A stretch of DNA of 64,000 nt from Nisaea sp. Its GTDB lineage: Bacteria; Pseudomonadota; Alphaproteobacteria; Thalassobaculales; Thalassobaculaceae. Below are positions 8,143-60,090 of this stretch, in pieces. The position numbers and the translations under genes were made by a program. The stretch lies in assembly GCF_017640745.1 (NCBI RefSeq), contig NZ_JAEPQA010000003.1, forward strand, positions 62,001 through 126,000, in the 5' to 3' direction. The notes below the pieces were generated by a model. That model was not told where the DNA came from. It made no database searches and saw only the letters and a program-made list of their open reading frames with translations. Each line of letters opens with the position of its first letter. The first letter of the stretch is position 1.

Positions 8143-8808
8143 ATGCAGCAGAAAACGCGAATTGCTCCCTCGATCCTGGCGGCGGATTTCGCCCGGCTCG
8201 GGGCGGAAATCGAGGCGATCGACAAGGCCGGCGCCGACTATATCCATGTCGACGTGATGGACGGTCATTTCGTGCCGAACATCTCCTTCGGTCCGGCGGT
8301 CACCAAGGCGGTGCGCGGGGTGACGAAGAAGACCTTCGACGTGCATCTGATGATCTCTCCGGTCGATCCCTATATCGAGGCTTTCGTCGATGCGGGCGCC
8401 GACATCATCACCGTGCATCCGGAGGCGGGCGCGCATACCCACCGCACGCTGCAGCTGATCAAGTCCTTTGGCAAGAAGGCGGGGATTTCGCTCAATCCGG
8501 GAACCCCGGTCGAGGTCGTGGACAACCTGATCGACCTTTGCGACCTGATCCTCGTCATGTCGGTGAACCCCGGCTTCGGCGGACAGAAATTCATCGACAG
8601 CCAGCTCGCCAAGATCGAGGCGATTCGCAAGCGCATCGACGCGACCGGCCGCACCATCGACCTCGAGGTCGATGGCGGCGTGACGGCGGAAACCGCACCG
8701 CGCTGCATCGCCGCGGGGGCCGACCTGCTCGTCGCCGGGACCGCCGTTTTCAAGGGCGGACCGGAGGCCTATGCTGCGAACATCGCGGCGATCCGGGGGG
8801 CGGGCTGA
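8143..8808 (+). CDS. rpe: Ribulose-phosphate 3-epimerase
   Basis: The protein has 221 residues, starting [20 protein letters not shown]. It interconverts ribulose-5-phosphate and xylulose-5-phosphate in the pentose phosphate pathway. TIM-barrel motifs are complete: [17 protein letters not shown] with metal-binding His and Asp, [19 protein letters not shown] with the catalytic loop, and [17 protein letters not shown] nine bases upstream (8134) is a possible alternative start, but the ATG is better placed behind AGGTGAAAG. It lies 41 bases after rsmB. Confidence 0.95.
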
Positions 8809-8836
8809 CGATCGGCCGGGCCTTTTGGGGGCTGTG

Positions 8837-10459
8837 ATGCGCACACTGAAGGAACTCTACTTCGCCTCGCCGATCTACCGCTGGCGTCTCGGGGCGAAAC
8901 CTCTCATCGGCTTCAGGGATCGGCTCTCCGACGATCTTCCCGGCGACGCCGACGGCGGCCGCGCGATCCTCGAAGGGCGTATGCCCTATACCCAGGGCAC
9001 GATCGCGCTCGGCGAGGATGCCTGGGCGCGGGAGCCGGGCGAGCCGGGAGCGCTCGAACATCTGCACGGATTTTCCTGGCTGCGCGACCTCCGCGATCTC
9101 GGTGGCGAGGCGGCGCGGCTCCGGGCGCGCGAGCTCGTCGACGGCTGGCTCGAACGCCATGACGAGTGGGACGCGCTGATCTGGCGTCCGGACATCCTCG
9201 GCGCGCGGCTGGCGGCCTGGATCGGCAATTACGACTTCTTCGGCGCGTCCGGCGACGATGCCTTCCGGGCGGATTTCTTCGACTCGGTCGGGCGCCAGTA
9301 CCGTCACCTCTCCGGCGATATCGAGGCCTCCGCGCCCGGCGCACGCCGCCTGCTCGCGGCCAAGGGGCTGTTCGCGGCGATGGCGGTGGTCGGCGAGGGC
9401 GAAGGGAAATTTGCGCAGGCGCTGCACTGGCTGCACCGGGAACTGGGGAGGCAGGTCCGTGCAGACGGTGGTCACATCTCTCGCTCGCCCGCTTTGCAGG
9501 TCTCCGTACTGGCCGATCTGGTCGAGATCCGGCGGGCGCTCCGCCTCGCCGGGCTGGAAGACGAGATGCTGGACGAGCGGATTTCTTCGATGACCGCGAT
9601 GCTCCGGATGCTGCGCCATGGCGACGGCGGGCTCGCGGTCTTCAACCATGCGACCGAAGGGCCGGTCGGGTTCATCGACAGCCTCATTGCGCAGGCCGAA
9701 AACAAGCGCAAGTCGCAGCTCTCCGCACCGGAGAGCGGGTTCGAGCGGCTGATCGCCGGGCGCACCTGCCTGATCATGGATACCGGCAAGCCGTCCTCCG
9801 CCGACCATGCCGCCCATGCGGGACTGCTCTCCTTCGAGCTCAGCGTCGGCAAGCAGCGCATGATCGTCAATTGCGGCGCCAGCCCCGCCGATCCGAAATG
9901 GGACAACGTGCTGCGCGCCACGGCGGCGCATTCGACACTGGTCGTGGACGACCGCAACGCGGCGGAGATCGAGAGCGACGGGACCGTCGGCAAGCGCCCG
10001 GGCAAGGTTGCGGCGCGGCGCATGGACCAGGACGGCGACATGCTGGTCGAGGCCGAGCATGACGGTTACCTGCCGACCCACGGGTTGAAGCATTTCCGCC
10101 GGGTCTATCTCGCGCGTAGCGGCGACGATATCCGGGTCGAGGACAAGCTGCTCTATACCGGCGATCCAGGCGACATTCCCGCCGAGGCCTGCATCCGCCT
10201 GCATCTGCATCCGAAAGTCCGCGCCTCGATTATCCAGAGCGGGACGGCGGCGCTGATCCGGCTCTCCAGCGGCTCCGGCTGGCGCCTGCGCTGCGACCGC
10301 GGGCTGGCGCTGAACGAGAGCGTCTATTTCGGCCAGGACGGCAAGTTCCAGCGCTGCGAGCAACTCGTCATCCGCGAGCCGCTGGCCGATATCCGTGCGA
10401 GCGGGGAGGTGACCATGCGCTGGGCCCTGCAGCGGGAAGACGGCAAGGCGGCCGGTTGA
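8837..10459 (+). CDS. Heparinase II/III family protein
   Basis: The protein has 540 residues. An N-terminal alpha-helical toroid-like region (HGFSWLRDL, GARLAAWIGNYDFF, LAAKGLFAAMAVVGEGEGKF) leads to a C-terminal beta-rich heparinase II/III region starting around PSSADHAAHAGLLSFELS. No signal peptide is apparent, unlike secreted polysaccharide lyases. This family member sits after rsmB and rpe in many alphaproteobacteria; its true substrate is unknown. It is followed 43 bases on by surface-polysaccharide genes, which supports a role in envelope glycan metabolism. Confidence 0.8.
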   Translation: MRTLKELYFASPIYRWRLGAKPLIGFRDRLSDDLPGDADGGRAILEGRMPYTQGTIALGEDAWAREPGEPGALEHLHGFSWLRDLRDLGGEAARLRARELVDGWLERHDEWDALIWRPDILGARLAAWIGNYDFFGASGDDAFRADFFDSVGRQYRHLSGDIEASAPGARRLLAAKGLFAAMAVVGEGEGKFAQALHWLHRELGRQVRADGGHISRSPALQVSVLADLVEIRRALRLAGLEDEMLDERISSMTAMLRMLRHGDGGLAVFNHATEGPVGFIDSLIAQAENKRKSQLSAPESGFERLIAGRTCLIMDTGKPSSADHAAHAGLLSFELSVGKQRMIVNCGASPADPKWDNVLRATAAHSTLVVDDRNAAEIESDGTVGKRPGKVAARRMDQDGDMLVEAEHDGYLPTHGLKHFRRVYLARSGDDIRVEDKLLYTGDPGDIPAEACIRLHLHPKVRASIIQSGTAALIRLSSGSGWRLRCDRGLALNESVYFGQDGKFQRCEQLVIREPLADIRASGEVTMRWALQREDGKAAG

Positions 10460-10502
10460 TGCGGCTGGCCCCCATCACCGGCGGGAAGGTATAAGGGCGC
10501 CC

Positions 10503-11528
10503 ATGCAACCGCTTTCCGCCATTGTCTTTTTCGCGATCCTTTTTCTCGCCGCCCTGATCGGAACGCGGATCCTGATCTCCCTGCTGACGCGGCGGCGGGT
10601 CATCGACGTGCCGAACGAGCGGAGCAGCCACGACGTGCCGAAGCCGCGCGGCGGCGGTATCGCCGTGGTCTCGGTGATGCTGGCGGGCTGGATCGGCTGG
10701 GCCGGTATCTCCGGAAGCCTGGACGCGACCGCGCTCGTTGTCGCGGGCCTGACGCTGGCGCTCGCGGCACTCTCCTTCGTCGACGATCTGAAGAACCTGC
10801 CGGCACGCCTCCGTCTCGTCATTCAGGCGCTCTGCGTTGCCGGAGGTCTCTGGGTGACGGTGCCGGAGGGCGGCTTCACCGGGGGCCTTCTGCCGGTCTG
10901 GCTCGAGCTGCCGGTCGCCGGTTTCGCCTGGCTCTGGTTCGTCAACCTGTTCAACTTCATGGACGGGATCGACGGGATCACCGGAGTCGAGACGATCAGC
11001 ATCGGTGGCGGCATTCTCGGCCTTGTCCTGCTCGGCGGGACTGCCGCGGCGCTGCAGGTTCCGGCCCTCGCCATGGTGGCCGCGATCGCCGGTTTCCTGG
11101 TGTGGAACTGGCAGCCCTCGAAGATCTTCATCGGCGACGTCGCTTCGATCCCGCTCGGTTTTCTGATCGGCTGGATGCTGCTGGAGACGGCCGGAGCCTC
11201 GGACGGGCTTGCAGGCTGGGCGGCGGCGCTGCTGCTACCGGCCTATTACCTCTTCGACGCGACCTTCACGCTCGGCAAGCGGCTGCTGCGGCGGGAGAAC
11301 GTCTTCGAAGCGCACCGTCAGCATTTCTATCAGCAGGCGACGCAGAAGGGTTTCAGCCATGCAGGGGCATGTCTTGCCATCGCCGTCCTGAACACGGTTC
11401 TGGTGCTGCTCGCCCTGTTCGCCGCGCCGGATTCTCCGCTGCCTGCGCTTCTTGGAGGATATGCCGCCGTCGTCGCGCTATGCCTGCTGTTTCGCCGCGG
11501 ACTTGCGAAACCGGAAACCGCCGAGTGA
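10503..11528 (+). CDS. Polyprenyl-phosphate glycosyl-1-phosphate transferase (GT4/WecA/MraY family)
   Basis: The protein has 341 residues and about ten membrane helices. It carries the MraY/WecA signature residues: RVIDVPNERSSHDVPKPRGGG in the first cytoplasmic loop, the Asp-Asp pair SFVDDLKNLP, NLFNFMDGIDGITGVE, and WNWQPSKIFIGDVASIPLG. The His-rich cytoplasmic loop near residue 270 (ENVFEAHRQHFYQQA) is also typical. It transfers a sugar-1-phosphate from a UDP-sugar to undecaprenyl phosphate, the first step of O-antigen or exopolysaccharide unit assembly. The next gene modifies nucleotide sugars. Confidence 0.88.
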   Translation: MQPLSAIVFFAILFLAALIGTRILISLLTRRRVIDVPNERSSHDVPKPRGGGIAVVSVMLAGWIGWAGISGSLDATALVVAGLTLALAALSFVDDLKNLPARLRLVIQALCVAGGLWVTVPEGGFTGGLLPVWLELPVAGFAWLWFVNLFNFMDGIDGITGVETISIGGGILGLVLLGGTAAALQVPALAMVAAIAGFLVWNWQPSKIFIGDVASIPLGFLIGWMLLETAGASDGLAGWAAALLLPAYYLFDATFTLGKRLLRRENVFEAHRQHFYQQATQKGFSHAGACLAIAVLNTVLVLLALFAAPDSPLPALLGGYAAVVALCLLFRRGLAKPETAE

Positions 11529-11629
11529 CCCGGAGATGGTCAACCGGGGCAAGACGGGGCGGCCCATCTGGTTTAGGTTTGCGGATGATTGCGCCCGGTG
11601 CCGGGCGCGAGATTGGATGAGCGGGTACG

Positions 11630-13570
11630 ATGTTCGGGTCTAAACGCGGTCTTCTGACTTACCTGCACGATGTCGGGATGGCGGCGCTCTCCTTCCTGAT
11701 CTCGCTGACGCTCCGTCTCGGCCAGGACATCCTGGTCTGGCCGCGCGAGGTCGTCGTCTTCGGCCTTGCCGCTTTCACCGGCGTGTCCGCGCTTGTCTTC
11801 CTCTCCATGCGTCTCGACCGCACGGTCTGGCGCTATTCGTCGATGAGCGATCTCAGCCGGATCGTCCGGGCCGTCGTGCTCTGCATCACGCTGTTTCTCG
11901 CGGTGCAGTTCCTTGCGACCCGGCTCGACGATTTCCCGCGCTCCTTCCTCGTCATCGAATTCTTCGTTCTGACCCTGCTGCTCGCCGGGCCGCGCTTCGC
12001 CTACCGGTTGGTCAAGGATGGCGCGTTCTCCAGCCTCTTTGAGCGCAACGCGGCGAACCGGGTCCCGGTGCTGCTGGTCGGAGCGGGCGACGGGTCCGAC
12101 GCCTTCATTCGTGAGATGGGCCGCGAGCGGGACGCGCCGTACCGCGCGGTCGGGATCGTCGACGATCGCGGCGGGCGGGTCGGACGAGCGATCCGCGGGG
12201 TGCCGGTGCTCGGGACGCTGAAGGAACTCGAAGAGGTTGTTGCGGGCCTGCGCAAAAGGGACACCGCGCCGCAGCGCCTGGTGATCACCCGGCAGTCTAT
12301 CGACGGGGCGGTGGTGCGCGAGCTGCTCGACAAGGCGAACGAGCTCGGACTAGCGGTCGGACGGATGCCCAAGCTCGGCACGCTCGAGGGAGCCGACGGC
12401 GAGGCGGAGACGGTGCGCTCGGTCAGCGTCGAGGATCTGCTCGGCCGTCCCCAGAAGGTGCTCGACCGCAAGGGCGTTTCCGACCTGATCCGGGGCCGGC
12501 GGGTTCTGGTGACCGGGGCGGGGGGAACCATCGGCGGGGAGTTGTCGCGCCAGATCGCCGCGCTCGGACCGTCGGAACTGGCCCTGATGGATATGGGCGA
12601 GTTTCCGCTCTACCAGATCGATCTCGAGATCTCCGAGAGCTTCCCGGACCTGCCGCGCCGGGCGCTGCTGACCGACGTCCGCGATGTCGAGGCGCTGAAT
12701 GCCTGTTTCGCGGATTTTGCTCCCGATATCGTCTTCCACGCGGCGGCGCTGAAGCATGTGCCGCTGGTCGAGGCGAACCCGGTCGACGGTGTCATGACCA
12801 ACGTGATCGGGACCCGCAACGTCGCCGACGCGGTGGCGTGGCACGGCGTCAAGGCAATGGTGCTGATCTCGACCGACAAGGCGGTCAATCCGACGAATGT
12901 CATGGGCGCGACCAAGCGCTCCGCCGAAGCCTATTGCCAGGCGAAGGATCGCGAGCAGGCGGAGAAGGGCGGTCCGCGCTACGTCACCGTCCGTTTCGGC
13001 AATGTGCTCGGCTCCACCGGTTCGGTGATCCCGCTGTTCCGCCGGCAGATCGCACGTGGCGGCCCGGTGACGGTGACCCATCCGGACATGACCCGCTATT
13101 TCATGACCGTTCGCGAGGCCGTCGAGCTGGTGCTGCAGGCGGCCGCGATCGATGCTGGCCTCGACGGAAATGCGCGGGAAAGCGGCGCGATCTGCGTGCT
13201 CGACATGGGCGAGCCGGTGAAGATCGTCGATCTCGCCCGCCAGATGATCCGGCTTTCGGGCTTCACACCGGACAAGGACATCGCGATCGCCTTCACCGGG
13301 CCGCGTCCGGGCGAGAAGCTCTACGAGGAGCTGTTCCACGACGCGGAGTCGCTGCGGCCGACGGCGATAGAGGGCATCCGCACGGCGTCTCCGCGCACCG
13401 CCGATCTGGCCGTGCTGTCCCGTGCGCTGGACGAGATCGAAAGCGCGGGCAGCCAGCGGAATGGCGAGCAGGTGCTGACGCTGCTGGCACGGCTGGTGCC
13501 GGAATTCTCCGGCAAGGCCGAGGGTTCTTCTGGCGGACCCGCGGTCGAAGGCGCCGCGCGCCCCGCCTAG
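11630..13570 (+). CDS. CapD/FlaA1-like nucleoside-diphosphate-sugar dehydratase, membrane-bound
   Basis: The protein has 646 residues. Four N-terminal membrane segments (about 1-110) precede a CoA-binding-like Rossmann region (VPVLLVGAGDGSDAFIREMGRE), then the NAD(P)-dependent SDR domain beginning RVLVTGAGGTIGGELSRQIAALG, with FHAAALKHVPLVE and ISTDKAVNPTNVMGATKR. The catalytic Tyr of classical SDRs is Met in this subfamily, as seen here. Enzymes of this type (WbpM, CapD, PglF) make 4-keto-6-deoxy UDP-sugars. It probably feeds the glycosyl-phosphate transferase just upstream. It ends overlapping the convergent AraC gene by 4 bases. Confidence 0.88.
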   Translation: MFGSKRGLLTYLHDVGMAALSFLISLTLRLGQDILVWPREVVVFGLAAFTGVSALVFLSMRLDRTVWRYSSMSDLSRIVRAVVLCITLFLAVQFLATRLDDFPRSFLVIEFFVLTLLLAGPRFAYRLVKDGAFSSLFERNAANRVPVLLVGAGDGSDAFIREMGRERDAPYRAVGIVDDRGGRVGRAIRGVPVLGTLKELEEVVAGLRKRDTAPQRLVITRQSIDGAVVRELLDKANELGLAVGRMPKLGTLEGADGEAETVRSVSVEDLLGRPQKVLDRKGVSDLIRGRRVLVTGAGGTIGGELSRQIAALGPSELALMDMGEFPLYQIDLEISESFPDLPRRALLTDVRDVEALNACFADFAPDIVFHAAALKHVPLVEANPVDGVMTNVIGTRNVADAVAWHGVKAMVLISTDKAVNPTNVMGATKRSAEAYCQAKDREQAEKGGPRYVTVRFGNVLGSTGSVIPLFRRQIARGGPVTVTHPDMTRYFMTVREAVELVLQAAAIDAGLDGNARESGAICVLDMGEPVKIVDLARQMIRLSGFTPDKDIAIAFTGPRPGEKLYEELFHDAESLRPTAIEGIRTASPRTADLAVLSRALDEIESAGSQRNGEQVLTLLARLVPEFSGKAEGSSGGPAVEGAARPA

Positions 13571-15871: not shown

Positions 15872-17527
15872 ATGAGCGAGGATCTTAATGCGCTGATGAA
15901 AATGGTCGAGGCGGGTCAGACGGACGCCGCCGAGCCCGGTCTCGTGGCTTTTGTCGAGGCGAACCCGCGCCAGCCCGCGGCGCAGTTCTATCTCGGGATT
16001 ATCCGGCTGAAGCAGGGGCGCAACGCGGAGGCCGCGGAAGCCTACAGGGCCGCCGCCCGCGGCTTGCCGGGTGTTGCGGCGGTGCATTCGAACCTCGCGC
16101 TCGCCGCACACCGCGCCGGGGAACCGGAGGCGGCGCGAACCGCCGCGCGGCGGGCGGCGCTTCTCGCTCCGGACGGTAGCGGCCCCTATGTCGTCACATC
16201 CGAGGCTGCCGCAGCAAGCGAAGATCCCGCCGCTGCGTTGCGCGCGGCCAAACTGGCCTTTTGCCTCGAGCCGAAAAGCCAGTGCGGTCTGATGCTCGAA
16301 GCGGCCCGCAAGGCGGGCGACACGCCGTGCGTGGAGGCGGCTGTTGCCCGGCTCATGGCGACCGATCCGACCGATCGCGCCGCCTCGATCAACGGCGCCC
16401 ACCATCTGCTGAAAAACGGCTACGGCGCCGAGGCGGAGAGGCTCTACCGCAATATCCTTGAGCACCATCCGAACGATCCGGACCTCTGGTTCAATCTCGG
16501 GGTGACGCTGATCGAGTCCGACCGGTTTGAGGACGCGGCAGAGCCGTACGCACGGCGCGCGCGTCTTGTTCACGGACGGCCGCTGAATGATGCGCCGGCC
16601 TATGCCGACATGCCCGCCGAGCCGGTGGTGCCGGTCGACCGGACCTGCGCCCGCCATCGCCTGAAGCACGATGCCGAGCAGTACCGCTACCTGACGGAGC
16701 GGGGCGTTCTGCCGCCCGAATACCGGGACGAATGGAAGACCTATCAGGAACTTCTCGACACTCTCGGCCCGGAAGACCGCGACGCGATCTCCTTCAAGCT
16801 GGACGATGCGCGTTATGGCAGGATCGCGCGTTCCTATAACCGCTTCGTCCATATTGCCGCGACCGGCTGGGAAGACGCGGATCCGATGAACCCGGATCTC
16901 GACTGGTCCGCGATCGAGGAAAGCTATCTGGATGCCGCGCCGCAGGCGGTGGCGATCGACGCACTGCTGAACGAGGAGGCGCTCGCCGCCATCCGGCGTT
17001 TCTGCTTCGAGTCCACGATCTGGCATCAGCTGAAGGGCGCGGGCTATCTCGGCGCCTACTATCGCTCCGGCTTCAACGACCCGCTGCTCTTCGCCATCGG
17101 CCGCGGTCTGCGCGAGCGCATGCCGCGCGTTCTGGGGCCGCACGGACTCAAGCTGATGTGGGCCTACAAGTACGACCAGCACATGTCGGGTATCAATCCG
17201 CATGCCGATTTCGCGGCCGTGAACGTGAATTTCTGGATCAATCACGCCGAGTCCAACCTGGACCCTGAATCCGGCGGGCTGCTGGTCTTCCGCAAGCCGG
17301 CGCCGAAGGACTGGACTTTCCAGCGCTACAACACGGCTCCGGCGGAGGAGATCTACGCGGCGCTCGGCGAGGACCGGAACAACCCTATCCGGGTTCCGAA
17401 CCGCGAGAACCGGGCGCTTCTGTTCGACTCCCGCCTGTTCCACGAGACCGACCGCTTCACCTTCAAGGACGGCTATATCCATCGGCGGATCAACATCACC
17501 ATGCTGTTCGGGCATGGCGGTACCTGA
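15872..17527 (+). CDS. TPR protein with C-terminal 2-oxoglutarate-Fe(II) oxygenase-like domain
   Basis: The protein has 551 residues. The first ~240 form TPR helices (AAQFYLGIIRLKQGRNAEAAE, VHSNLALAAHRAGEPEAART, LWFNLGVTLIESDRFEDAAE). The C-terminal half shows the double-stranded beta-helix dioxygenase layout, with the iron motif HxD at about residues 444-446 (INPHADFAAVNVNFW), a distal His near residue 524 (SRLFHETDRF) and a following Arg pair (HRRINIT) that may bind 2-oxoglutarate. It probably hydroxylates a protein or peptide held by the TPRs, but the target is unknown. It overlaps the next TPR gene by 14 bases. Confidence 0.78.
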   Translation: MSEDLNALMKMVEAGQTDAAEPGLVAFVEANPRQPAAQFYLGIIRLKQGRNAEAAEAYRAAARGLPGVAAVHSNLALAAHRAGEPEAARTAARRAALLAPDGSGPYVVTSEAAAASEDPAAALRAAKLAFCLEPKSQCGLMLEAARKAGDTPCVEAAVARLMATDPTDRAASINGAHHLLKNGYGAEAERLYRNILEHHPNDPDLWFNLGVTLIESDRFEDAAEPYARRARLVHGRPLNDAPAYADMPAEPVVPVDRTCARHRLKHDAEQYRYLTERGVLPPEYRDEWKTYQELLDTLGPEDRDAISFKLDDARYGRIARSYNRFVHIAATGWEDADPMNPDLDWSAIEESYLDAAPQAVAIDALLNEEALAAIRRFCFESTIWHQLKGAGYLGAYYRSGFNDPLLFAIGRGLRERMPRVLGPHGLKLMWAYKYDQHMSGINPHADFAAVNVNFWINHAESNLDPESGGLLVFRKPAPKDWTFQRYNTAPAEEIYAALGEDRNNPIRVPNRENRALLFDSRLFHETDRFTFKDGYIHRRINITMLFGHGGT

Positions 17528-19076
17528 GACCCCGCCGACCGATGAATGGCGCCGGGCTGCCTCGGAGCATGCGGTTGCGGGGGACTGGAACGCCTGCCGA
17601 GGACTTGCTCGTAAGCTTCTCCTCGTCATCCCGCGCGACCCGATAGGCTGCTACTTCTTCAGCCTTTCGGCCGGACGTCTCGGCAATGCCGCATTGTCGG
17701 GCCGCTCCGCAAGCTGGGCGCGCACAGCTATCCCGCGTCCTGTTGTCGTTCCGCTGCTCAAGGAACTCTTCACGCTCCAGGGCCTTGCGGGGGGCGATCG
17801 CGATGCGCTCCGGCGGGCGGTGCTGGTCTCGCCCAGTGAGGGGGCAGGGCAGTTCAATCTGGCCAACCTGGAGGTCCGCAGGGAGAAGTACCGGGCCGCG
17901 CTGACCCTGCTCCGGCGGGCGAGTGCCGCAAGACCGCTCGATCCTGGAACGCTGGGCGAGATTGCCCGGATCCAGGGTCTGCTGACGGATGGCGCGCATC
18001 CCGGCGCAGCGTTCTCGCGCGCGCTCGTGGTCAGTCCTTCCGATTTCGGCACACTCCGGAACATGGGGCTCTGGCAACGCAAGCAGGACCGGTCGGCGGA
18101 GGGGGCGCGCTGGTTCCGCCGGGCCGTCACGGTCAACCCGACGAGCCGGGAGGCGCAGGGGGAACTGGGCCGGGCGCTGCTCAGCGACGGCCATCTGGCC
18201 GAAGGCTGGCCCCGGCTGGAGCGCTTTCGCCTGCCTGAGTGGGAGCCGCCGATCGACGGTCTCCCGCGCTGGGACGGCAGTCTGGTACCGGATGGTGCGT
18301 TGCTGCTCTGGAGTGTCGACAAGGTCGGTGATGAGCTGCTGTTCTCAGTCTTTCTGGAGCGTGCGCGGCAGGCGGCGGGGCGGGTGATCGCGGTCGTGGA
18401 CCGACGCAACGTCGCCTTGCTCTCCCGCCTGCATCCCGAAATTCGTGTACGCGCCACTCTGCCGGAAGAGGATCCGGCCGACCCGGATTGGAAACCCGTG
18501 ACCGCCTATCCGCTGGAATTCGCCGGCCGTTTTTTTTCCGTAAAGCCGGCGGACCTTGCCTGCCCGGGCGGACACCGGTCGCTCCCTCGAAAAGCCGGAA
18601 GCGGCGGCGGTCCTCTCAAGATCGGCATCTCCTGGAAGTCCGACGCCTCGCTGGTCGGCGCGCTCAAATCCACGCAGCTTGCCGACTGGGCCCCGCTACT
18701 CAGACAGCCGGGCTGCCGGTTTTTCTCGCTTCAATACGGTGAAGAGCAAACGGAACTCGAGAGATTTCCGGAGGTGGAGCGCATACCCGGCTTCGAGCCC
18801 TTTGGGCCGACATTGGCATTCGCGGAAACCATCGTGGATCTGGATCTGGTCATCACGGTCGCCAATACGACGGCGCATATAGCCGGATGCACCGAGACCC
18901 CGCTCTGGGTCCTCTTGCCGACCGGTTTCGGCTGCAGCTGGTTCTGGTTCCGGGAGCGATCGGACAGCCCGCTCTATTCCCGTGCCAGGCTTTTCCGCCA
19001 GCCGGTTCCGGGCGATTGGCGACCCGTATTCGAGGACCTCGGGGTCGCACTCGCGGAGCTGTCTGCGGGCCGGTGA
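17514..19076 (+). CDS. TPR protein with C-terminal glycosyltransferase-like (GT-B) domain
   Basis: The protein has 520 residues. Residues ~1-240 are degenerate TPRs (AGQFNLANLEVRREKYRAALT, FGTLRNMGLWQRKQDRSAEGARW). From about residue 260 the sequence resembles the C-terminal domain found in many bacterial TPR/ADP-heptose-type transferases: LKIGISWKSDASLVGALKST, CRFFSLQYGEEQTEL, then VDLDLVITVANTTAHIAGCTETPLWVLLP. The last segment corresponds to the nucleotide-sugar site of GT9/GT41-like proteins. Together with the overlapping oxygenase gene it may form a protein-modification pair. Confidence 0.7.
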   Translation: MAVPETPPTDEWRRAASEHAVAGDWNACRGLARKLLLVIPRDPIGCYFFSLSAGRLGNAALSGRSASWARTAIPRPVVVPLLKELFTLQGLAGGDRDALRRAVLVSPSEGAGQFNLANLEVRREKYRAALTLLRRASAARPLDPGTLGEIARIQGLLTDGAHPGAAFSRALVVSPSDFGTLRNMGLWQRKQDRSAEGARWFRRAVTVNPTSREAQGELGRALLSDGHLAEGWPRLERFRLPEWEPPIDGLPRWDGSLVPDGALLLWSVDKVGDELLFSVFLERARQAAGRVIAVVDRRNVALLSRLHPEIRVRATLPEEDPADPDWKPVTAYPLEFAGRFFSVKPADLACPGGHRSLPRKAGSGGGPLKIGISWKSDASLVGALKSTQLADWAPLLRQPGCRFFSLQYGEEQTELERFPEVERIPGFEPFGPTLAFAETIVDLDLVITVANTTAHIAGCTETPLWVLLPTGFGCSWFWFRERSDSPLYSRARLFRQPVPGDWRPVFEDLGVALAELSAGR

Positions 19077-39902: not shown

Positions 39903-39960
39903 CTTGCATCACGACCGGGGAGAGAGGAAATGCGACGGGTGGACCCGGTCTACGGATCCG

Positions 39961-40050
39961 GTGACGTCTCCCTGCGCCGGCATGACCCGGATCAGGTTCG
40001 ATGGGTATCCTCTCAGTTCCGGATCGGTCTCCGGAACACCCCAGCATCAC
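39961..40050 (-). promoter_or_regulatory. TPP riboswitch (THI element)
   Basis: Read on the minus strand, all conserved THI blocks occur in order. P1 5' arm is GTGATG (40050-40045), then GGGGTG (40042-40037). A perfect hairpin TTCCGG/CCGGAA comes next, followed by CTGAGA (40016-40011) and ACCC (40006-40003). Then come GAACCTGATCCGGGTCATGC (39999-39980), GGCG, CAGGGAG (39974-39968) and the P1 3' arm CGTCAC (39966-39961). It ends 93 bases before the importer binding-protein ATG. It senses thiamine pyrophosphate and normally shuts off thiamine synthesis or uptake genes. Confidence 0.95.
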
Positions 40051-40276
40051 TTTGGCCCAACCTGCGGACGGCCCCGGGATTTGTCAAGGAGCACCCTGCG
40101 GGATACCGGCGGCCCGAAATTTTTTGAGGCTTTATCGCATTGATTTGCAAAGAAAGTGAGCGGATTTTCCGAAAGTTGAAAGAGAAAGTTCTTTCGAGTT
40201 CGCCATGATTTGTTAACCTTATATGCGCGGAAAAATTGAGGAGAGTGTTAAAGGGGCTCACGAAAGGTGAGTGCAT

Positions 40277-59154: not shown

Positions 59155-60090
59155 TCAGCTTACGCGGATGCGCGGGTTGAGATAGGCGTACCCGATATCG
59201 GAAATGAGCTGTGTCAGCAGCACGACGACGACGGAGACCAGCGAGCAGCTGAGCAGCAGGTCAATGTCGTTGTTGTCGGCGGCTTCCACCAGGGTCCATC
59301 CGAAGCCCTTGTAGTTGAAGAGCTTCTCGACGATGACGACGCCGGTGAGCAGCCAGGGGAACTGCAGCATGATCACGGTGAAAGGAGCGATCAGCGCGTT
59401 CCTGAGCGCGTGGCGTAGGACCTGGGCGCGGAAGGAGAGGCCTTTGAGCCGCGCGGTGCGGATATACTGCGCGGTCATCACCTCGGCCATGGAAGCCCGG
59501 GTCATGCGCGCGATATAGCCCATGCCGTAGATCGCCATTGTCATGACGGGCAGGGCGAAATTGTTGAAATCGATGCCGCCGGCCTTGGAGACGCCCTTCA
59601 GGACGCCAAGCCAGGAGGCGAACAGAACGGTAAACAGGATGCCGGAGACATATTCCGGCGTTGCCGTCGAGGCGATGGAGACGACGGAAAGACTTCGGTC
59701 CGTCTTCGAGCCCTCGCGCATGCCTGCGAGCACGCCGATGAGCAGAGCCGTCGGGACCATGGTGATCATGACCCAGAACATCAGCGTGCCGGTATAGCCG
59801 ATACGCGGCCCCAGAACTTCGTCGACCGGCTTGCGGAAGCGCGTTGACTGGCCGAAATCGCCGGTCGCCGCATTGCCGATCCATTCCGCATAACGTTCCA
59901 GCAGGGGGCGTCTGTAGCCTTCTTTTTCCAGCCAGCTCTCGACCGCTTCTTCGGTCATGCGGTTGTTGTTCTGTTCGAGCGCGAGTTTCTTAAGGTTCGG
60001 CTCGAGATTGACCAGATAGAACACCACGAGCGTCAAGCAGATCATCGTCACGATCATGACCGCCAGACGTCTCAGAATGAATTGCAGCAT
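59155..60090 (-). CDS. Peptide-type ABC permease (DppB-like)
   Basis: The protein has 311 residues. It starts MLQFILRRLAVMIVTMICL, the usual DppB N-terminus, followed by WLEKEGYRRPLLERYAEWIGNAATGDFGQSTRF. The coupling loop is EVMTAQYIRTARLKGLSFRAQVLRHALRNALIAPFTV. It lies 108 bases after the binding-protein gene and 14 before the DppC-like gene. Confidence 0.92.
   Translation of the reverse strand: MLQFILRRLAVMIVTMICLTLVVFYLVNLEPNLKKLALEQNNNRMTEEAVESWLEKEGYRRPLLERYAEWIGNAATGDFGQSTRFRKPVDEVLGPRIGYTGTLMFWVMITMVPTALLIGVLAGMREGSKTDRSLSVVSIASTATPEYVSGILFTVLFASWLGVLKGVSKAGGIDFNNFALPVMTMAIYGMGYIARMTRASMAEVMTAQYIRTARLKGLSFRAQVLRHALRNALIAPFTVIMLQFPWLLTGVVIVEKLFNYKGFGWTLVEAADNNDIDLLLSCSLVSVVVVLLTQLISDIGYAYLNPRIRVS

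Follow-up and report, generated by a model that had tools for sequence, protein, structure and literature searches.

TPR-guided glycosyltransferases (FlmG) and TPR-guided hydroxylases (AspH) are already known separately, and a bacterial operon joining both would be a compact system in which to ask whether oxygen- and 2-oxoglutarate-dependent hydroxylation feeds cytoplasmic protein glycosylation. Here, this question is raised by two overlapping genes in a 64,000-nucleotide stretch of DNA from Nisaea sp. (hereafter, the window), which lies on contig C33 of a 4.5-Mb alphaproteobacterial genome (G000). In a preliminary description, these genes had been read as encoding two TPR proteins, one ending in a 2OG-Fe(II) oxygenase and the other in a GT-B-like sugar-transfer domain, which could hydroxylate and then glycosylate the same TPR-bound protein. 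The features of the locus are the following:

15872–17527, + strand: ORF1, predicted TPR-2OG/Fe(II) oxygenase, 551 aa
15872–16570, + strand: N-terminal TPR arm of ORF1, aa 1–233 (Pfam TPR; helix pairs in the AF2 model)
16640–17524, + strand: predicted C-terminal oxygenase region of ORF1, aa 257–551 (56-member alignment; PF13640 in relatives; beta strands in the model)
17201–17209, + strand: HxD iron-ligand motif of ORF1, H444 and D446 (invariant in 16 and 56 sequences)
17441–17443, + strand: distal iron-ligand His of ORF1, H524 (invariant in 16 and 56 sequences)
17486–17488, + strand: putative 2-oxoglutarate-binding Arg of ORF1, R539 (invariant; role assigned from the 2OG-oxygenase layout)
17514–17527, + strand: 14-nt overlap of the ORF1 stop region and the ORF2 start (equal in length in the window, L061, L062 and L063)
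17514–19076, + strand: ORF2, TPR-glycosyltransferase-like protein, 520 aa
17538–18230, + strand: N-terminal TPR arm of ORF2, aa 9–239 (Pfam TPR; model helices)
18231–19073, + strand: predicted C-terminal GT-B-like domain of ORF2, aa 240–520 (alpha/beta domain in the model; Foldseek matches to SPINDLY/OGT; conserved residues)

Both genes were recovered as originally described, on the same strand, with exact coordinates and lengths, with Pfam TPRs in both products and with exactly 14 shared nucleotides (ATGGCGGTACCTGA, 17514–17527). ORF1 and ORF2 are under purifying selection, and their dN/dS values of 0.06–0.31 exclude chance open reading frames for both. All four domains are subject to purifying selection, and constraint is strongest on the oxygenase domain (dN/dS 0.06–0.10). 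Selection is weakest on the glycosyltransferase protein, with dN/dS of 0.14–0.28 in its glycosyltransferase domain and an identity between the window and L063 of 49–54%, as compared to 66–81% for the oxygenase. Such faster evolution of ORF2 would fit a fast-changing client.

The TPRs of ORF1 were strongly detected by Pfam (PF13432, 5e-17, aa 1–233), and its AlphaFold model (pLDDT 90) displayed TPR-like helix pairs over aa 2–234. In the C-terminal region, H444, D446, H524 and R539 were invariant in 16 and then in 56 homologues spread over Alphaproteobacteria, and their order, HxD...H...R, is as predicted for 2OG/Fe(II) oxygenases. The 56 sequences thus carry both the HxD/E...H triad and the putative 2OG-binding Arg/Lys that characterise this superfamily, and the oxygenase assignment of the preliminary description withstood the comparison of its catalytic residues, with a Pfam match that stays sub-threshold (PF13640, 14.6 bits against a curated cut-off of 27 bits, E = 0.065). 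PF13640 was found at E <= 0.01 in 5 of the 56 relatives, the best reaching 3.9e-5. An NCBIfam search returned TPR families only and no catalytic-domain family, and the catalytic-domain profile of ORF1 returned only chance matches from the PDB, such as glutaminase and 14-3-3. The HAD motif of ORF1 aligned with the HQD of an annotated 2OG-Fe(II) oxygenase in a weak profile comparison (P 0.011). Pfam hardly recognises the ORF1 family, a conserved group of oxygenases whose members are annotated as 'tetratricopeptide repeat protein' or 'hypothetical protein'. In the model, the C-terminal half of ORF1 is mixed and strand-rich, with about ten strands. Foldseek searches with this model identified TPR proteins and human AspH, in a ranking that was dominated by the TPR part and had low TM-scores; the alignment with AspH spans both domains (E 2e-8) but has a TM-score of 0.24. 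The relative domain arrangement therefore differs, and the match to a double-stranded beta-helix barrel is suggestive rather than proven.

The TPRs of ORF2 were likewise identified by Pfam (PF13428, 2.6e-8) and in the AlphaFold model (pLDDT 88), where TPR-like helix pairs extend over aa 9–239. This model could be aligned over nearly its full length with TPR plus GT-B enzymes, including SPINDLY (E about 1e-11) and OGT (6e-10), and the modelled TPR plus GT-B-like architecture is hence well supported. The C-terminal domain had no match in Pfam and none by sequence profile in the PDB, where the sequence matches of ORF2 were confined to the TPR part. Across 27 homologues, W253, G371, D444 and W502 are conserved. 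Relatives of ORF2 bear the annotation 'tetratricopeptide repeat-containing glycosyltransferase family protein', and about a dozen paralogues are encoded in the window's own genome. The Asp of the VDT motif seen in some of these paralogues is replaced by A/G/P/S in the ORF2 subfamily, and glycosyltransferase activity, as judged from the sequence, is therefore likely but not certain. The sugar-transfer domain of the preliminary description was supported as to its fold, though not as to any catalytic residue, by the structural match to SPINDLY and OGT. The same replacement, together with the lack of a Pfam or PDB sequence match for the C-terminal domain, might also be taken to mean that ORF2 has lost its glycosyltransferase activity and now serves as a TPR adaptor whose GT-B domain has degenerated. 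We consider such a loss quite improbable, as the position of the VDT Asp is variable (e.g. Cys) in many other members of the glycosyltransferase family, and the domain is under purifying selection (0.14–0.28) with W253, G371, D444 and W502 invariant.

Elsewhere in the same genome, a cluster at L153 and L154 (G000:C18:1-40000) comprises five TPR-glycosyltransferases, a 538-aa RTX protein with 15 HemolysinCabind stretches, a type I secretion ABC protein, HlyD and sugar-nucleotide genes, and has the appearance of a locus for a glycosylated secreted protein. A second candidate oxygenase, located in another glycosylation cluster of this genome (L157:5470-6258), matched no Pfam family, showed no similarity at the profile level and was dropped. 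The window also contains two Rfam matches, a TPP riboswitch (65.6 bits, 39951–40053, minus strand) and a Ruegeria cis52 sRNA (72.8 bits, 59400–59572, plus strand).

Inspection of the neighbouring genes, which in this high-GC DNA were called by amino-acid composition, placed the pair in the window between a FAD monooxygenase (pobA-like) gene and a BT1-like transporter gene, with no evident client protein adjoining it. Polysaccharide genes lie 2–7 kb upstream of the pair; heparinase II/III-like, WecA-type sugar-phosphate transferase and NDP-sugar dehydratase (WbpM/FlaA1-like) genes stand there in a row (window 8771–13570) as part of a conserved block. In four species of the genus this block consists of heparinase-like, WecA-like, NDP-sugar dehydratase, AraC, pobA-like, ORF1, ORF2, BT1-like transporter, nitroreductase and ManC genes, and the 14-nt overlap is kept in all four pair-bearing species. 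In Nisaea denitrificans DSM 18348, the ORF1 orthologue is 75% identical and the gene order equals that of the window. A fifth species (G018) has the same neighbours and lacks both genes, and a PAS_5 gene (168 aa, minus strand; L149, G018:C42) occupies the site of the pair between the pobA-like and BT1-like genes. The oxygenase and the glycosyltransferase were thus gained or lost jointly.

In a second genus (G009), the genes stand in the same order and the end of the oxygenase overlaps the start of the glycosyltransferase by 4 nt (GTGA); this oxygenase is known from a 42-aa end at a contig edge (74% identical), and the contig also carries cytidylyltransferase genes. A third genus (G011) has the oxygenase and glycosyltransferase genes side by side in convergent orientation. 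In a fourth (G008; L071:1224-7300, minus strand), one strand carries, in this order, genes for a more distantly related TPR-glycosyltransferase, an RTX protein of 531 aa with calcium-binding repeats and the TPR-oxygenase, which places a candidate client beside both enzymes. Recurrence of an RTX protein near the oxygenase was sought, and this locus was the only one found. The pair-linked glycosyltransferases (genera 1, 5 and 7) form one clade (support 100/99) with one member each from G008 and G021, and in members of the family without this clade the oxygenase stands alone.

At the level of the family, a TPR-glycosyltransferase was located within 5 kb of the oxygenase in four lineages among 14 loci, as compared to 0.32 expected, with a Poisson P of 3e-4 that is indicative only, given the post hoc limit, the clustering of glycosyltransferase genes and some short contigs. 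Outside the family, such proximity was observed at 1 of 42 loci (0.40 expected); the 5-kb limit was set after seeing the data, and the P values are post hoc. The oxygenase was present in seven of the eight genomes with the linked glycosyltransferase clade and in 7 of the 28 without it (Fisher P = 0.003, uncorrected for phylogeny). In the class sample it was present in 33 of 386 genomes, the window's own included, or about 8% of the sampled Alphaproteobacteria, and 9 of the other 32 oxygenase-bearing genomes had no glycosyltransferase of the ORF2 family (E <= 0.001). Among the loci examined there was no natural fusion of the two enzymes, and the fetched loci revealed no shared family beyond close relatives as a recurrent third partner of the oxygenase, the neighbours being mixed housekeeping and catabolic genes. 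Since proximity exceeds chance within the family but not outside it, and 9 of 32 oxygenase-bearing genomes are without the glycosyltransferase, the association is real but local. The co-occurrence implied by the preliminary description thus held, with overlapping genes, in the genus itself and a second one, with a convergent arrangement in a third and joint absence in one species, and gave way elsewhere to mostly unlinked genes.

Distant relatives of ORF1, which are only about 30–36% identical and belong to other branches of the tree, stand in varied settings. On plasmids of Aminobacter and Thioclava they lie inside hydantoinase/oxoprolinase and ABC-transporter operons (L159:5554-6897 and L160:5356-6582), in Cupriavidus a relative is clustered with an FkbM methyltransferase and another 2OG oxygenase, and others adjoin molybdenum dehydrogenase and dihydroorotate-dehydrogenase-like genes. 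Tandem duplicated TPR-oxygenase genes were also observed in two other genomes (L129:7311-10516 and L134:6727-10380), directly abutting in L129. The catabolic contexts fit small-molecule chemistry in those oxygenase branches, and the substrate class may differ between branches of the ORF1 family. In light of these varied settings, ORF1 itself could oxidise a small molecule (e.g. a nucleotide sugar, a lipid or an amino-acid derivative), with its TPR arm serving oligomerisation and the glycosyltransferase using or preceding its product. The polysaccharide genes upstream in the window would agree with such a role, but the relatives found in catabolic contexts are distant ones, and a fusion of TPRs to a 2OG oxygenase is the arrangement that acts on protein substrates in AspH (PMC6817910); a small-molecule substrate is, in our assessment, unlikely.

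Considered as a whole, the locus is best explained by two translationally coupled cytoplasmic enzymes that act on TPR-recruited protein clients, one oxidising and the other glycosylating, a reading to which we assign roughly an even chance. Translational coupling of ORF1 and ORF2 would yield two cytoplasmic protein-modifying enzymes. ORF1 would bind a protein client through its TPR arm and oxidise it, most likely by side-chain hydroxylation, at a 2-oxoglutarate/Fe(II) centre composed of H444, D446 and H524, with R539 for 2-oxoglutarate. ORF2 would bind a protein client via its own TPR arm, and its GT-B-like domain would glycosylate this client from a nucleotide-sugar donor, as FlmG does with flagellins. 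In the genus and two related ones, both enzymes probably belong to a common programme of surface modification and may have a client in common, and beyond these genera the oxygenase works without the glycosyltransferase. The conserved overlap, the joint absence and the family-level proximity make translational coupling and a shared pathway likely, locally. A client shared by ORF1 and ORF2 within the pair-bearing clade is a tentative proposal, to which we give less than even weight. Alternatively, the coupled enzymes could act on different protein clients or residues, the operon only setting a matched dosage. Two separate TPR arms, the much faster divergence of the glycosyltransferase, as though it followed a client that changes, and the use of the oxygenase alone elsewhere would accord with separate clients, whereas the joint presence or absence of both genes in the genus and their repeated proximity in four lineages would not, and we regard this arrangement as possible but rather unlikely.

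No description of such an oxygenase-glycosyltransferase pair was found in the open-access literature. The closest idea, that of an oxygenase followed by a glycosyltransferase on one protein, is provided by the eukaryotic Skp1 system of Toxoplasma and Dictyostelium, in which prolyl hydroxylation is followed by the addition of a glycan on hydroxyproline (PMC11570480). By analogy, ORF1 would hydroxylate a residue of the client and ORF2 would place a sugar on that very hydroxyl. The overlapping genes and their joint absence are consistent with such a sequence, as is the eukaryotic precedent, but the oxygenase occurs without the glycosyltransferase in many genomes, and FlmG is discussed as modifying Ser/Thr, for which prior hydroxylation is unneeded (PMC7591256). 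We therefore consider a Skp1-like sequence very unlikely, and of the shared TPR-bound client put forward in the preliminary description, a common protein substrate is plausible while the order of hydroxylation and glycosylation on one residue is unsupported. The order of glycosyltransferase, RTX protein and oxygenase on one strand in one relative suggests a more specific version, namely an oxygen-dependent two-step modification in which an ORF1-type enzyme would hydroxylate a protein that is secreted or located at the surface, perhaps a calcium-binding one of the RTX type, and the coupled glycosyltransferase would add a sugar to the new hydroxyl; this we hold to be highly improbable.

The preferred reading of two TPR-guided enzymes acting on proteins draws on closer comparisons for each of them. 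In AspH, as in ORF1, a TPR arm precedes the 2OG-oxygenase domain, and hydroxylation of AspH substrates depends on the TPR domain of that enzyme (PMC6817910). In contrast to ORF1, AspH binds iron by two His only (His679/His725, PMC6817910), and the invariant HxD...H of ORF1 and its lack of a match to Pfam Asp_Arg_Hydrox (PF05118) rule it out as a member of the AspH family. The HxD...H...R order of ORF1 is instead that of PF13640 (2OG-FeII_Oxy_3) oxygenases, including prolyl 4-hydroxylase-like enzymes, from which the ORF1 family differs by distinct conserved blocks, e.g. GYLGA, HADFAAVNVNFWI and RRINITMLFG. OGT and SPINDLY (GT41), the top structural matches of ORF2, share its TPR plus GT-B architecture, but ORF2 is 11–12% identical to them, with sequence matches that do not extend beyond the TPR part and no match to the GT41 catalytic domain in Pfam. 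FlmG, the TPR-bearing flagellin O-glycosyltransferase of Caulobacter crescentus, resembles ORF2 by its architecture of N-terminal TPR and C-terminal GT-B-like domains and by size (596 vs 520 aa), and both are from Alphaproteobacteria. The TPR domain of FlmG is necessary and sufficient for flagellin binding, and its GT-B domain modifies flagellins (PMC7591256). ORF2 differs in being paired with an oxygenase and in lying away from flagellar and pseudaminic-acid genes. Elsewhere in the genome of the window, three TPR-glycosyltransferases adjoin genes for NeuB and a CMP-sugar synthetase (L155:7485-15782, G000:C22); they fit FlmG better than ORF2 does and likely represent the FlmG-type locus of this genome.
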